Below are positions 3,263 to 14,822 of a DNA stretch of 64,000 nt, in pieces. The stretch comes from Sphaerisporangium krabiense (GTDB taxonomy: Bacteria > Actinomycetota > Actinomycetes > Streptosporangiales > Streptosporangiaceae). The notes under the pieces are model-generated. The model was not told the origin of the DNA, made no database searches, and saw only the letters and a list, made by a program, of their open reading frames with translations. The stretch covers positions 2,666,001-2,730,000 of the forward strand of contig NZ_JACHBR010000001.1 of the NCBI RefSeq assembly GCF_014200435.1, in the 5' to 3' direction. Both the position numbers and the translations under genes were made by a program. The first letter of the stretch is position 1. Each line of letters starts with the position of its first letter.

Positions 3263-4750
3263 GTGACCACCCCACGCAACGTCCTCTTCCTGATGACCGA
3301 CCAGCACCGGGTCGACACGCTTGGCTGCTACGGCAACCCGGTGGTGCGCACCCCGGCGCTGGACGACCTGGCCGCGCAGGGCGCCCGCTTCGACCGCTTC
3401 TACACGCCCACCGCGATCTGCACGCCCGCGCGGGCGTCCCTGTTCACCGGCCTGCACCCGTTCCGGCACGGCCTGCTCGTCAACCCCGAGCGCAACGGCG
3501 GCGCCCGCGACGAGGTCGCCGACGACCAGCCGGTCCTGCCCGCGCCGATGCGCGCGGCCGGGTACAACCTCGGGCACGTCGGGAAGTGGCACATCGGCCG
3601 TGAGCGTGGACCCGAGTTCTACTCCATGGACGGCGAGCACCTGCCCGGTGCGCTCAACCCGTTCCACCACCCCTCCTACGAGCGCTGGCTCAAGGAGAAC
3701 GGCCACCCGCCCTTCGCGGTGCGGGACCCGGTCTTCGGCAAGGCCCCCAACGACTCCGGGCGCGGCCACCTGATCGCCGGGCGGCTCCTCCAGCCGGCCG
3801 AGGCGACCGTCGAGGCGTTCCTGACCGACCGCACGCTGGAACTGCTGGAGCGCTACGCCCGCGACTTCCACGACGGCGGCAGGCCCTTCATGCTCTCCTG
3901 CCACTTCTACGGCCCGCATCTGCCGTACCTGATCCCCGACGCGTACTACGACATGTACGACCCCGAGCAGGTGCCGCTGCCGGAGTCGATGGCCGAGACC
4001 TTCGCCGGCAAGCCCGACGTGCAGCGCCGCTACGCCGAGTACTGGTCGGCCGACCACTTCGACGCCGACGCCTGGCGCAAGCTGATCGCGGTCTACTGGG
4101 GCTACGTCACGTTGATCGACGACCAGGTCGGCCGGATCGTCGCCGCGCTGCGCGAGCACGGGCTCTGGGACGACACCGCCGTGATCTTCACCGCCGACCA
4201 TGGTGAGTTCACCGGGGCCCACCGGCTCAACGACAAGGGCCCGGCGATGTACGAGGACATCTACCGCATTCCCGGCATCGTCCGCGTCCCCGGCGCCCCG
4301 CCCTGGGTCGTCGACGAGTTCGCCACGCTGGTCGACCTCAACCCGACGATCCTGGAGCTGGCCGGGCTACCGCCGCAGGACCCCTGCGACGGCGAGAGCC
4401 TGATTCCGCTGGTGAACGGCGAACCGGTGGACGGGCGAACCGAGGTGGTCGCGGAGTTCCACGGCCACCACTTCCCCTACTCTCAGCGCATGCTCCGGGA
4501 CCACCGCCACAAGCTGGTGTTCAACCCCGAGAGCGTGCACGAGCTGTACGACCTGGAGAGCGACCCGCACGAACTGCACAACGTCTACACCGCTCCCGCC
4601 TACGCCGCCGTACGGCGCGACCTCACCGTGCGGCTCTACCGCGAGCTGCTGCGCCGCGGCGATCCGGCCTACACCTGGATGAGTTACATGTCCGACATCG
4701 GCGAGAACCGCGCTCCCGACGTCGACGGCGTCGCCGACGAGGTCGCCTGA
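3263..4750 (+). CDS. Sulfatase of the formylglycine-dependent class (type I)
   Basis: 495 residues. GTG at 3263 was chosen because GGAGA ends 5 bases upstream and homologues begin at this point (PRNVLFLMTDQHR). The activation motif is C53-T-P-A-R57, where Cys is oxidised to formylglycine. Metal-binding segments near the N-terminus (MTDQH) and at FTADHGEF fit the alkaline phosphatase/sulfatase superfamily. No signal peptide is visible, so it is probably cytosolic and acts on imported sulfate esters. The next gene (51 bp on) is an SsuA/AtsR-like binding protein, and the activating enzyme lies at 7919. Substrate unknown; choline-sulfatase-like and GlcNAc-sulfatase-like activities are both possible. 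Confidence 0.9.
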   Translation: MTTPRNVLFLMTDQHRVDTLGCYGNPVVRTPALDDLAAQGARFDRFYTPTAICTPARASLFTGLHPFRHGLLVNPERNGGARDEVADDQPVLPAPMRAAGYNLGHVGKWHIGRERGPEFYSMDGEHLPGALNPFHHPSYERWLKENGHPPFAVRDPVFGKAPNDSGRGHLIAGRLLQPAEATVEAFLTDRTLELLERYARDFHDGGRPFMLSCHFYGPHLPYLIPDAYYDMYDPEQVPLPESMAETFAGKPDVQRRYAEYWSADHFDADAWRKLIAVYWGYVTLIDDQVGRIVAALREHGLWDDTAVIFTADHGEFTGAHRLNDKGPAMYEDIYRIPGIVRVPGAPPWVVDEFATLVDLNPTILELAGLPPQDPCDGESLIPLVNGEPVDGRTEVVAEFHGHHFPYSQRMLRDHRHKLVFNPESVHELYDLESDPHELHNVYTAPAYAAVRRDLTVRLYRELLRRGDPAYTWMSYMSDIGENRAPDVDGVADEVA

Positions 4751-4801
4751 GGCTTCCGGCGCTCTTTCCATCACCACCCCACCCCCCTCGAAAGGACCTC
4801 C

Positions 4802-11062: not shown

Positions 11063-11908
11063 ATGAAGCTGCCTTCGTACACTGCCGCCCTCGTGGCGGC
11101 CGGCCTGTTCACTTCCTTGGCCGGAGTGTCCGGAGTGTCGGTGGCACAGGCGGCCGACGACAGGGCGCTTCCGAGCGTGGACATGGAAGCGACCGTCAAG
11201 GCCGCCCAGATCGATCCGCGGCGGCCGGACGACAAGCTGACGCCGGGCGCCAAGGCCGGTGTGCTGCTCGTCGAGCGGGCGCTGCGCGATCGGCGTCTGC
11301 TCGACGCGAAGTGGGTGGACGGGTACTTCGGCACCACGACGGTCGCCGCCTTCGCGAAGTTCCAGAGGTCGCTCGGCCTCACGGGCCTCGCCGCCAACGG
11401 CCTGCCGGGCAAGGCGTCGCTCACCAAGCTCGGGGCCGGCCGCTTCAGGGTCACCCACGTCATCGGCCCGGGCGGCCGGGTGTCCGCCGGGGGCTTCGTC
11501 CTCGGCACCCGGACGCGGAGCATGCTGGCCGAGGCGAAGCGGCTGCTCGGCCGCGACCTCGTGCTGTTGCAGGGGTCGTACAACCCCGGCGGCGACCCCA
11601 CGTCCGCGGGTACCCACGACGGCGGGGGCGTCGTCGACATCTCGGTCAAGGGGATGAGTTCCGCCACCCGCACCACGGCCGTCCGCGCGTTGCGACGTGT
11701 CGGCTTCGCGGCGTGGCTGCGTAACCCCGATCAAGCCGACTGGCCGTGGCACGTCCACGCCGTCGCCATCAACGACACCGACCTCTCCAGCCAGGCGCAG
11801 CACCAGGTCGGCGACTACTACCTCGGCCTGAACGGGCTGTCCGGCCGTGGCCGGGACGACGGCCCGAAGGTGCCCATCCGCACCTGGGAGGAGTACCGGC
11901 GCCGCTGA
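11063..11908 (+). CDS. Secreted peptidoglycan-binding / M15-like D,D-peptidase
   Basis: 281 residues. Signal peptide to about residue 32 (VSVAQA|AD). A PG_binding_1-like helical module (~65-125: YFGTTTVAAFAKFQRSLGL) is followed by a domain with the M15/VanY-type zinc triad: H185 and D192 in THDGGGVVD and H232 in WPWHVHAV. It should cut D-Ala-containing peptides in the wall. GGAG lies upstream of ATG. It is the first of three consecutive secreted wall enzymes on this strand. The M15 assignment rests on motifs only. Confidence 0.75.
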   Translation: MKLPSYTAALVAAGLFTSLAGVSGVSVAQAADDRALPSVDMEATVKAAQIDPRRPDDKLTPGAKAGVLLVERALRDRRLLDAKWVDGYFGTTTVAAFAKFQRSLGLTGLAANGLPGKASLTKLGAGRFRVTHVIGPGGRVSAGGFVLGTRTRSMLAEAKRLLGRDLVLLQGSYNPGGDPTSAGTHDGGGVVDISVKGMSSATRTTAVRALRRVGFAAWLRNPDQADWPWHVHAVAINDTDLSSQAQHQVGDYYLGLNGLSGRGRDDGPKVPIRTWEEYRRR

Positions 11909-11948: not shown

Positions 11949-12845
11949 ATGAACACGCTCACCAAGATCCTCACCACGGCGTCCGCCGCGATGGTGGTCG
12001 GCGGGACGGTGCTCGCCGCCGCCTCGCCCGCCTCGGCGGCGAGCCGCAACGGCGTCTGCGAGACCGGCGAGTTCTGCTACTACTTCAACAGCGACACCAA
12101 GGGATCGGTTTCCGACTTCGCCGGATCGGTCGGCGACTACGGAACCAAGCAGCCCTCCTGCTTCGACTTCAAGGGACCCGGCAACGGCAAGGGCAAGTGC
12201 GTCAAGAACTCCGCCGCCTCGGTCTGGAACCGCAGCGGCAAGACCGTCCGGGTGTACTTCAACAGCAACTACGGCGGCAGCATCTACCAGGACTTCAAGC
12301 CGGGCGCCAAGGGCAACCTCAAGGCGAGCCTCAAGAACCAGAACGCCTCACACCAGTTCGGCCCGTCGTCGTCGGCGCGCGTCAACATGTCGTACGCGCT
12401 GTACAAGACCAGTGGCGGCCACATCAGTTGCGGCTTCGACGGCTACACCAACACCCCCGGCCGGCATGAGGGCATCGACATCGCCCGCGGCATAGGCGCG
12501 GACGTCCACGCCCTGGTGGGCGGCCAGCTCATCTATCTCGCGCGCGGGCGCAACGGCGGCTCGGGGCTCTCCACGATCGCCATCTACAACGCCTCGCTGA
12601 ACAAGACGATCATCTACCTGCACTCCGCTCCGCTGTCCTCCCTGCGGGTGGGCCAGCAGATCTCCCGCGGTCAGACCATCGCCGACGAGGCCTGGCACGG
12701 GGTGTCGTCCAGCCGGGCCGCGCACACCCACGTCGAGATGCGGCCCGGGCGGCAGAAGCTCGCCGCCAAGAGCGTCGGCGACCCGACGCTGAGCAACCCG
12801 AACCCGAACGCGTTCTGGGTCTCCCAGGGCTACAACGTCCGCTAG
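11949..12845 (+). CDS. Secreted M23 (LytM-type) endopeptidase with N-terminal I36 module
   Basis: 298 residues. Signal peptide to about residue 32 (SPASA|A). A peptidase-inhibitor family I36 (SMI, crystallin-like) module spans about 33-135 with four cysteines. The M23 domain (~140-298) has zinc ligands H173 and D177 (RHEGID) and H261 in the HTH motif, so it is predicted active. M23 enzymes cut peptide cross-bridges in peptidoglycan. The I36 module could be a built-in inhibitor or a wall/substrate-binding domain. Bases 11977-12354 are nearly identical to 12922-13299 in the next gene. Confidence 0.88.
   Translation: MNTLTKILTTASAAMVVGGTVLAAASPASAASRNGVCETGEFCYYFNSDTKGSVSDFAGSVGDYGTKQPSCFDFKGPGNGKGKCVKNSAASVWNRSGKTVRVYFNSNYGGSIYQDFKPGAKGNLKASLKNQNASHQFGPSSSARVNMSYALYKTSGGHISCGFDGYTNTPGRHEGIDIARGIGADVHALVGGQLIYLARGRNGGSGLSTIAIYNASLNKTIIYLHSAPLSSLRVGQQISRGQTIADEAWHGVSSSRAAHTHVEMRPGRQKLAAKSVGDPTLSNPNPNAFWVSQGYNVR
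11977..12354 (+). repeat. 378-bp I36-module repeat, copy 1
   Basis: This block and 12922-13299 (offset 945) differ at only three positions, all synonymous third-codon changes (two Gly codons and one Ser codon). It runs from inside the signal-peptide coding region to the end of the I36 module. Flanking sequence is unrelated on both sides. Confidence 0.95.
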
Positions 12846-12881
12846 CGCGCCTCGGCCTCTGACGAAGAAGAGAAGGCGACT

Positions 12882-13832
12882 GTGTCTGTACGAATCACAC
12901 GGCTGATCTCGCGGTTAGCCGCGGCGTCCGCCGCGATGGTGGTCGGCGGGACGGTGCTCGCCGCCGCCTCGCCCGCCTCGGCGGCGAGCCGCAACGGCGT
13001 CTGCGAGACCGGCGAGTTCTGCTACTACTTCAACAGCGACACCAAGGGATCGGTTTCCGACTTCGCCGGATCGGTCGGGGACTACGGGACCAAGCAGCCC
13101 TCCTGCTTCGACTTCAAGGGACCCGGCAACGGCAAGGGCAAGTGCGTCAAGAACTCCGCCGCCTCGGTCTGGAACCGCAGCGGCAAGACCGTCCGGGTGT
13201 ACTTCAACAGCAACTACGGCGGCAGCATCTACCAGGACTTCAAGCCGGGCGCCAAGGGCAACCTCAAGGCGAGCCTCAAGAACCAGAACGCCTCGCACCG
13301 GCTCCTGAGCTCCACGCCGCCGACCGGATGCAAGACCGACGGCACGCACAGCAGGCTGCCCACGACGATCCTCGTCTACCGGAAATCCCTCAACCGCGTG
13401 GACCGGGTGGATTTCAAGACCTACATCAAGAACGTCCTGCCCAACGAGTGGCGGTCGCACTGGCCGCAGCAGTCCCTCAGGGCGGGGGCGATCGCGGTCA
13501 AGAACTTCGGCTGGTACTGGGCGCTGCGTTCGGCGAGCAAGACGCCGAGCGGCCAGTGCTACGACGTCACTGACCACACGTCCAGCCAGGTGTACAAGCC
13601 CGGCTCCGCGACGGCGGCGACGAACGCCGCGGTGGACGCGACGTGGGGCGTCCGGATGACGCGCGGTGGGAGCATCTTCAAGGCCCAGTACTGCTCCACG
13701 ACGACGGCGTGCGGCAACTGGGTCACCGGCGACTGGATGTCGCAGACCGGCTCTCGCGACAAGGCCAACGCGGGCTGGAGCTATTCGAGGATCCTCAAGT
13801 ACTACTACAAGGGGATCGCGCTCACTTCCTGA
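12882..13832 (+). CDS. Secreted SpoIID/LytB-domain protein with N-terminal I36 module
   Basis: 316 residues. GTG 12882 was chosen for AGAAGG six bases upstream. Signal peptide, then an I36 module identical in protein sequence to that of the preceding gene. The C-terminal half (~145-316) is SpoIID/LytB-like: FKTYIKNVLPNEW followed by SLRAGAIAVKNFGWY, the family's conserved block with the catalytic-type Glu in PNEW. SpoIID proteins are lytic transglycosylases acting on denuded glycan strands. With the M15 and M23 enzymes upstream, the cassette could trim peptides and then cut glycan. Confidence 0.85.
   Translation: MSVRITRLISRLAAASAAMVVGGTVLAAASPASAASRNGVCETGEFCYYFNSDTKGSVSDFAGSVGDYGTKQPSCFDFKGPGNGKGKCVKNSAASVWNRSGKTVRVYFNSNYGGSIYQDFKPGAKGNLKASLKNQNASHRLLSSTPPTGCKTDGTHSRLPTTILVYRKSLNRVDRVDFKTYIKNVLPNEWRSHWPQQSLRAGAIAVKNFGWYWALRSASKTPSGQCYDVTDHTSSQVYKPGSATAATNAAVDATWGVRMTRGGSIFKAQYCSTTTACGNWVTGDWMSQTGSRDKANAGWSYSRILKYYYKGIALTS
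12922..13299 (+). repeat. 378-bp I36-module repeat, copy 2
   Basis: Second copy of the block described at 11977-12354. Sharp boundaries at both ends suggest recent duplication or gene conversion. Confidence 0.95.
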
Positions 13833-13895: not shown

Positions 13896-14822
13896 TCACT
13901 CGACGATGATCTGGAAGTTGAGCGGCCGGCCTCCGGGGAACGCGACCTGTCCCGAACCGTCCAGCATCTTGAACCGCACGTAGCACAAGCCCGGGTTCCT
14001 GGGCGTGGTGATGTCGGTCTGGACGTCGACGATCTCTCCGGGGCGCGTGTCCTTGATGTGGACGTCGGAGATGGTCTGGCATTGGTCAGGTCGCTGCGGA
14101 AGGTCGAGGCGATGCAACGAATATCCCTTCCACCACACGGTCCCGGCGTTCTTGAGCCGCCACACCTTGGTCTGGGTCTGGCCGGGCCCGACACGCGTGC
14201 AGTCGGGGAGCGTGATGTCCCCGATGAACGTCGCCGAGTCACCCTGGTGCGCGGGCGGCGCCCACGGCGGGGTGGTCGGGCGCACCGGACAGTCGGCCGC
14301 CGACAGCGTGGTCTTCGATGGGCTGCCGGACGGGTCCAGAGCGCGCCCGTCGGTCCCGGAGCCGCGATTGACGGCGACCACGATGAGGACCGCTGCCACA
14401 CCGGCCCCCGCGGTCGCGAGCGCGGCCACCGCCAGGCGGGTCGGCCGGAACCGCCCCCGGCCCGCCGGCGCAGGGGGGACCGGCTGGACGTCGCCCGCCA
14501 TCTCGCCGGGCGGTGACGGCGTCAAGGTCTCCGCGCGGAGCGGAGGATCTCCCGCGCCGGCGGACCTGACCGCCAGATTCGCCCTCTCCCAGCGTTCGCG
14601 GTACGCGGCCGGGTCCGCGCCGCACGCCTTGACGAACTCGACGGTGGTCTCCCAGCTGGGGAGCCGGTTGCCCTTCGTGGCTTCGTGCAACGTCGTGTGC
14701 GAGATCGCCCCCGACCGGCCGGACATCTCCCGAAATGGTGGATTGCCGACTGATGCGCGAAGCTCTCGCAGCGCCGCCGCGAAGTCCTCGATGGCCCCCG
14801 CCCGTGCAGGCATGTCGTCCAC
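13896..14822 (-). CDS. XRE-type HTH membrane protein with extracytoplasmic NBR1-Ig-like domain
   Basis: 308 residues. An XRE-like N-terminal domain (~10-85: GAISHTTLHEATKGNRLPSW) is followed by a Pro-rich linker and one membrane span (~128-150). A C-terminal beta-sandwich (~185-308) matches the NBR1-type Ig domain (GQTQTKVWRLKNAGTVWW, PGEIVDVQTDI). The HTH would face the cytoplasm and the Ig domain the outside, a layout seen repeatedly in actinomycetes with no settled function. It may sense envelope state beside the wall-hydrolase cassette (inference). Confidence 0.75.
   Translation of the reverse strand: MDDMPARAGAIEDFAAALRELRASVGNPPFREMSGRSGAISHTTLHEATKGNRLPSWETTVEFVKACGADPAAYRERWERANLAVRSAGAGDPPLRAETLTPSPPGEMAGDVQPVPPAPAGRGRFRPTRLAVAALATAGAGVAAVLIVVAVNRGSGTDGRALDPSGSPSKTTLSAADCPVRPTTPPWAPPAHQGDSATFIGDITLPDCTRVGPGQTQTKVWRLKNAGTVWWKGYSLHRLDLPQRPDQCQTISDVHIKDTRPGEIVDVQTDITTPRNPGLCYVRFKMLDGSGQVAFPGGRPLNFQIIVE

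Follow-up and report, generated by a model that had tools for sequence, protein, structure and literature searches.

The question raised by this locus is how two neighbouring genes for unrelated cell wall-lytic enzymes have come to carry almost the same DNA in front of their catalytic domains, and what the module encoded there does for them. In the window (the whole 64,000-nt stretch of Sphaerisporangium krabiense DNA that was analysed), the features concerned are the following:

11949..12845, + strand: gene A, 298 aa, with a signal peptide (by eye), an I36 module and an M23 peptidase domain
12882..13832, + strand: gene B, 316 aa, with a signal peptide (by eye), an I36 module and a SpoIID/LytB-type domain
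11977..12354, + strand: copy A of the homologous block, 378 bp, homogenised, comprising the end of the signal peptide and the whole module
12922..13299, + strand: copy B of the homologous block, 378 bp, homogenised, offset by 945 from copy A
12039..12353, + strand: copy A of the I36/beta-gamma-crystallin-like module, 105 aa
12984..13298, + strand: copy B of the I36/beta-gamma-crystallin-like module, 105 aa
12915..12917, + strand: TTA codon of gene B, within its signal peptide and directly outside the homogenised block

Genes A and B are separated by 36 nt, and Pfam places both domains of each protein above their gathering scores (gene A: I36 47.3 bits, cut-off 21.1, and M23 35.5 bits, cut-off 28.7; gene B: I36 47.7 bits, and SpoIID 48.4 bits, cut-off 23), confirming the preliminary description of a single module joined to both M23 and SpoIID; TIGR02669 matched gene B with 79.4 bits, slightly under its cut-off of 83.3. 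The zinc-ligand residues of M23 (HxxxD and HxH; H, D, H, H, H) are kept in 58/58 of the orthologous loci introduced below, as is the Glu of VLPNEW in SpoIID (58/58); the Glu of SpoIID/LytB lytic transglycosylases is catalytic. The same description had reported two 378-bp blocks with three synonymous differences between unrelated flanks, and this proved accurate. The mismatches lie at 12134/13079 (GGC/GGG), 12143/13088 (GGA/GGG) and 12350/13295 (TCA/TCG), all third codon positions and all synonymous, while genes A and B are unlike at 16/27 positions of the upstream flank (11950-11976) and 39/65 of the downstream flank (12355-12419). The mature 105-aa module consequently has the same protein sequence in both genes. 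A third close copy is absent from the genome, the next match to the module reaching only E 0.08 at 27 % identity; a family profile located three more I36 stretches elsewhere (E ≤ 0.01), two of which exceed the cut-off.

A scan of reference genomes with the module returned 79 loci, by title mainly from Streptosporangiaceae and Thermomonosporaceae, or 81 loci with matches when the window and its genus-mate L009 are counted. The pair analysis kept the 58/81 loci that have, free of N, a full-length module in an M23 ORF as well as in a SpoIID ORF; copies of the window, copies of L014/L015 and weak matches (together L001-L008 and L010-L013) had been set aside in advance, and for L093-L120, none of which is in the tree, pair identities only were computed. 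Each of the 58 loci has adjoining module-M23 and module-SpoIID genes, and together they represent 11 named genera in three families. Within Sphaerisporangium, the module was found in 4/11 genomes, always as two copies 940-946 bp apart, and order-wide in 38/200 Streptosporangiales genomes. The I36-M23/I36-SpoIID pair is therefore an old one, conserved in Streptosporangiales.

Within this old pair, the module almost certainly undergoes concerted evolution. Across the 58 loci, the median identity of modules A and B within a locus is 0.951, as against between-locus medians of 0.837 (A-A) and 0.824 (B-B); a module is nearer to its own partner than to any orthologue of either copy in 40/58 loci, and in four (L017, L022, L025 and L087) the two copies are identical. 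On a harder measure, which asks whether a locus's own two modules are separated by a lower pS than either catalytic domain shows against the nearest locus, only 30/58 loci qualify. A maximum-likelihood DNA tree recovered 45/58 pairs as exclusive sisters and required 53 changes of the A/B label, and an AU test, with four sets of identical rows left unconstrained, rejected a single clade of all A modules (p-AU 4.9e-6, about 5e-6). Because of these exclusive sisters and the rejection of the A clade, we conclude that gene conversion has taken place many times, with its reach restricted to the module; on the premise that the pair is ancestral, every exclusive pair implies one or more conversions after its divergence from the nearest sampled relative. 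The continuing gene conversion that had been suggested for the window is thus borne out, as repeated events, by comparison of 58 orthologous pairs. Orthologues with independently diverging copies, named beforehand as the observation that would speak against it, are encountered in part, in that 13/58 pairs are not exclusive sisters, and homogenisation is accordingly episodic.

The pattern of differences along the copies is that of tracts. The modules form a direct repeat with copies approximately 0.9 kb apart and, in most M23/SpoIID cassettes, resemble each other more closely than modules do between species. The stretch of likeness ends sharply on its 3′ side, at the module's last residues (≤7 nt past the last codon in 51/58 loci), and more variably on its 5′ side, where the edge falls within the signal peptide at a median of 33.5 nt (range 0-103) before module residue 3. 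Seven pairs with under 3 differences were omitted from a run test, in which A-B differences were clustered at p<0.05 in 13/51 pairs and at p<0.01 in 5, compared with 6/58 and 1/58, respectively, for the nearest orthologues used as a control; the window pair itself, having three differences only, gave no tract signal (p 0.12). The two hallmarks of concerted evolution, paralogues closer than orthologues and a tract structure, are both present. We infer that the underlying process is recombinational gene conversion between direct repeats, which seems to have occurred separately in dozens of related species.

Homogenisation acts within cassettes and not between cassettes of one genome. Six multi-locus genomes contain nine M23/SpoIID cassettes, in every one of which the two copies resemble each other (identity 0.869-0.961) more than they do the copies at the genome's other loci (0.748-0.869); in the single CHAP/SpoIID cassette of this set the identity of the two copies is 0.772, and that to the other locus reaches 0.791. 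CHAP/SpoIID pairs also indicate that the process is not universal, as the partner was closer than both best orthologues in 0/8 loci, although several of the species are close; at one of these loci, L085, the partner beats one of the two best orthologues. In a genome of another family (G366), a 332-nt block with 5 differences is common to one gene of M23 type and one of CHAP type.

A benefit from this process is a separate matter. Slightly short of even odds, in our estimate, is the alternative that homogenisation is a neutral by-product, in which direct repeats 0.9 kb apart convert and produce identity without benefit while each module experiences ordinary purifying selection only, an account that is compatible with a targeting role. 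It draws support from pN/pS, which is 0.255 within pairs (bootstrap 0.209-0.301) versus 0.274 (0.235-0.319) between independent orthologue pairs chosen by a catalytic-domain pS under 0.2. Protein-level constraint beyond ordinary purifying selection, proposed from the window pair, therefore found no support, and given these similar ratios ordinary purifying selection can yield a pair whose three differences are all synonymous. Binning on the module's own pS had hinted at extra constraint, but such bins select noise, and the difference vanished once the bins were taken from the catalytic domains. Against the neutral account, a change between species is more frequently common to the two copies when it alters an amino acid than when it is synonymous (248 in both copies and 236 in a single copy, versus 203 and 285; Fisher p 0.003), although this excess is not decisive because synonymous saturation biases the comparison in the same direction. 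In the 8 closest species pairs, module synonymous divergence (pS 0.195) was higher than that of the catalytic domains (below 0.10).

As to what the module is, its sequence falls in Pfam PF03995 (Inhibitor_I36), the scores of the two copies being more than twice the gathering cut-off. The module models as a beta-gamma-crystallin fold, in a model of moderate quality (pLDDT 72.5): the best Foldseek match was 1hdf (probability 1.00, E 5.5e-3, TMq 0.65), with none at E ≤ 0.001, and a VIA comparison with the same structure gave Z 9.8 and an rmsd of 2.4 over 88 aligned residues. The structure of the inhibitor SMI (1bhu; see below) did not figure among the 50 matches listed from these comparisons, an absence to which we attach no weight. 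Two sequence searches for solved relatives yielded nothing significant (best E 0.033 and 0.29). Calcium-binding beta-gamma-crystallins carry the motif N/D-N/D-x-x-S/T-S. An alignment of 75 rows, comprising the window's module and 74 of the 147 related modules listed, has Ala at the fifth position of both motifs (60 and 103) in 75/75 modules, and at the first position Lys in 75/75 (56) or Lys in 67 and Tyr in 8 (99); canonical Ca2+ binding was rejected, as the motif is broken in all 75.

The Streptomyces metalloproteinase inhibitor SMI (PDB 1bhu), which we take to be the namesake of Pfam I36, shares with the module this family and the spacing of the first Cys pair. The module, however, is joined to enzymes and has no counterpart of SMI's second Cys pair, which presumably lies in the reactive-site loop. 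In a MAFFT alignment with SMI, limited by identities of 22-28 %, the side of SMI's Cys64 meets a nine-residue gap that is present in each of the 10 other rows, and SMI's Cys69 stands opposite no Cys; cysteines past position 54 are not conserved among the 75 modules (single cases at 71 and 83), and hhalign of the module profile against SMI covered 17 columns at 0.8 % probability. The earlier label 'SMI-like' thus stands for the Pfam family but not for the profile comparison or the second Cys pair. Eleven further loci (L141-L151, 10/11 in one other genus) encode secreted I36 proteins that are 40-45 % identical to the module and stop soon after it; three of them were aligned and are without a module-type second Cys pair.

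The enzymes joined to the module bear on its role. By tblastn, among loci picked by likeness to the window module, 147 module ORFs in 81 loci comprised 68 with SpoIID, 62 with M23 and 12 with CHAP domains (142 together), the remainder being two NlpC/P60 ORFs, one unclear ORF with NlpC/P60 below the cut-off, one ORF truncated at a contig end and one interrupted by an N run. CHAP was confirmed by Pfam in all five ORFs scanned, and in the enzyme ORFs inspected the module sits between the signal peptide (by eye) and the enzyme. A search for the module on further enzymes, advocated in the preliminary description, thereby added CHAP and NlpC/P60 to its partners. Wall-binding modules are recognised by their attachment to a range of unrelated wall hydrolases, at times as tandem copies, and this arrangement is what we observed. 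A wall enzyme is not an obligatory companion of the fold itself, since at least 17 more distant relatives (identity 32-52 %) stop shortly past the module with no enzyme there. Two tandem-module NlpC/P60 proteins, from Glycomyces and Promicromonospora, carry four modules before the enzyme (L089, 4551-6497) and three (L091, 4887-6494), respectively.

Judging from these domain combinations, a shared wall-targeting role for both modules would be about an even chance, and targeting is probably to be favoured over inhibition, a preference already voiced for the window pair and now strengthened. The opposing possibility, that the module is an SMI-like inhibitor or a prodomain silencing its own enzyme until cleaved or released, seems unlikely to us. 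The Pfam assignment to Inhibitor_I36 speaks for it, as does the best solved structure match of the SpoIID part, the pre-pro-form of a spore cortex-lytic enzyme (9h68, E 7.8e-8). However, the same module precedes M23, CHAP, NlpC/P60 and SpoIID domains, which are not known to have an active site in common, and, as set out above, neither SMI's Cys64 nor its Cys69 has a cysteine counterpart in the module, which conserves none past position 54.

Genes A and B are the inner members of a four-gene cassette, the outer members of which in the window are:

11063..11908, + strand: gene 1, secreted, with an N-terminal PG_binding_1-like domain and a C-terminal part
13896..14822, − strand: gene 4, convergent, with a putative N-terminal HTH, a hydrophobic segment and a C-terminal NBR1-type (FW) Ig domain

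Genes 1, A and B and the HTH/NBR1-Ig gene were recovered from 57, 53, 59 and 50, respectively, of the 66 loci of at least 9 kb (window excluded); of six other window neighbours tested in the same loci, five were found in 0 and an ABC transporter in 7. Pfam PG_binding_1 matched gene 1 at E ≤ 0.1 in 33/34 members scanned (20.7 bits for the window protein, cut-off 23). When the window protein was aligned with 33/65 related ones, H-D-G-G-G-V-x-D and W-P-W-H-x-H of the C-terminal part were invariant in the 34 rows, motifs that we read as probably those of an M15/hedgehog-type metallopeptidase; in the fold search nothing reached E ≤ 0.001, and a Hedgehog chain ranked 30th (probability 0.21) is no more than a hint, concerning the C-terminal part.

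Gene 4 scored 47.2 bits for N_BRCA1_IG (cut-off 28) and 21.4 bits for HTH_31 (E 3.2e-4, under the cut-off of 27), and its hydropathy peaks at approximately residues 131-151, between the HTH and the Ig. Because a hydrophobic segment sits between these domains, gene 4 is likely, from its predicted features, to be a membrane-spanning sensor/regulator, and we regard it as a candidate for that function. It lies convergently 51-206 nt past SpoIID in 53/69 loci (window included); matches on the cassette strand occur in 13/69 (10 upstream, 3 downstream), six of which span the HTH part only and may be other HTH genes, and 3/69 have no gene 4 match, one for lack of sequence. The Ig domain of this gene, syntenic with a wall-lysis cassette, is best known from autophagy receptors. 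PMC9582228 pictures an HTH-FW protein, HTH-XRE of Rhodococcus fascians, which combines an HTH with an NBR1-type FW domain, as gene 4, with its putative HTH, would do; gene 4 differs in being tied by synteny to a wall-lysis cassette and in the hydrophobic segment between its domains.

The presence of this neighbour invites a further alternative, in our view very unlikely, that a protein partner docks on the module, an example being the Ig domain encoded by the neighbouring HTH gene; both enzymes would then be held or read out by one sensor. The convergent position of the HTH-Ig gene beside most cassettes, with 13 further loci having a same-strand match nearby (six of them to the HTH part only), is consistent with docking, and NBR1 FW domains bind proteins in eukaryotes, according to PMC9582228; against it, L041, L075 and L160 contain the module without an HTH-Ig match.

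Our preferred explanation as a whole, to which we would give a probability of roughly 0.6, combines an old cassette, conversion of the module, shared targeting of two cutters and control by the HTH-Ig protein. The old wall-lysis cassette consists, in order, of a PG_binding/M15-like protein, the module with a peptide cutter (M23, in some genomes CHAP), the module with a glycan cutter (SpoIID type) and the HTH-Ig protein. As a wall-targeting domain, the module would direct a peptide cutter and a glycan cutter, complementary in action, to one shared feature of the wall; conversion keeping both domains alike may be harmless or useful; and the HTH-Ig protein may span the membrane, sense an outside signal and control the cassette.

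The nearest parallel is the primate receptor pair Siglec-11/Siglec-16, likewise two genes with different output and a homogenised region; according to PMC5701461, their ligand-binding region was homogenised by repeated conversion in every primate examined. Here, by contrast, the proteins are bacterial secreted enzymes with unrelated catalytic domains and a putative targeting module. Relaxed constraint is also reported on the converted Siglec exons (PMC5701461), whereas the module's pN/pS within pairs is no higher than between orthologues. By analogy, the cassette may be a counterpart of paired receptors, in which conversion would keep the peptide and glycan cutters on one species-specific wall feature, the module drifting between species, under the control of an HTH protein that would span the membrane and sense the wall or the module with its NBR1-type Ig domain on the outside; we offer this as a speculative and rather improbable extension. 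Bacterial rRNA operons, whose concerted evolution is the subject of PMC6002687, resemble the module in that paralogues of one genome are more alike than orthologues, but there whole genes are repeated and here one common domain in otherwise unrelated protein genes. Modular wall hydrolases, for example those with Cpl-7 repeats (PMC5705596), similarly combine a small domain, sometimes repeated, with cutting domains; the present module differs in its predicted beta-gamma-crystallin-like fold, and its wall binding is putative.

Gene conversion is a known mechanism, and its setting in paired wall hydrolases is a new variant; among open-licence PMC articles (for broader topics, the top-ranked matches only), we found no publication on an I36 module in wall hydrolases. 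The locus offers a natural experiment in which a 105-residue domain of two unrelated enzymes has been re-equalised in many lineages with sharp edges, and it makes testable the idea that gene conversion is a means of matching the aim of cooperating bacterial wall hydrolases. It also points to a branch of I36 that, by its domain partners, is probably wall-targeting and not a protease inhibitor, and reveals a conserved cassette with an unusual HTH/NBR1-Ig protein.

The idea that the near-identity reflects a module duplication recent and restricted to one lineage, or an assembly artefact, can hardly be credited, since, although some draft assemblies are interrupted within or next to the module (L016, L024 and L062; G013, G042 and G109), the orthologous pair common to 11 named genera in three families rules out the former and five single-contig genomes with alike modules (L102, L106, L108, L110 and L120; pair identity 0.941-0.994) rule out the latter. 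The recent duplication envisaged in the preliminary description is accordingly abandoned.

Two minor observations concern the edges of the pair. At L122 (G174, approximately 4531-4772), gene B is broken and only the module start and the SpoIID end are left. TTA codons crowd the 30 codons preceding the module (9/4543 codons, versus 1/42132 in module and enzyme), and the one in gene B of the window belongs to this region. TTA codons are associated with bldA-type control, and their clustering before the module suggests either such control or a relaxed leader.
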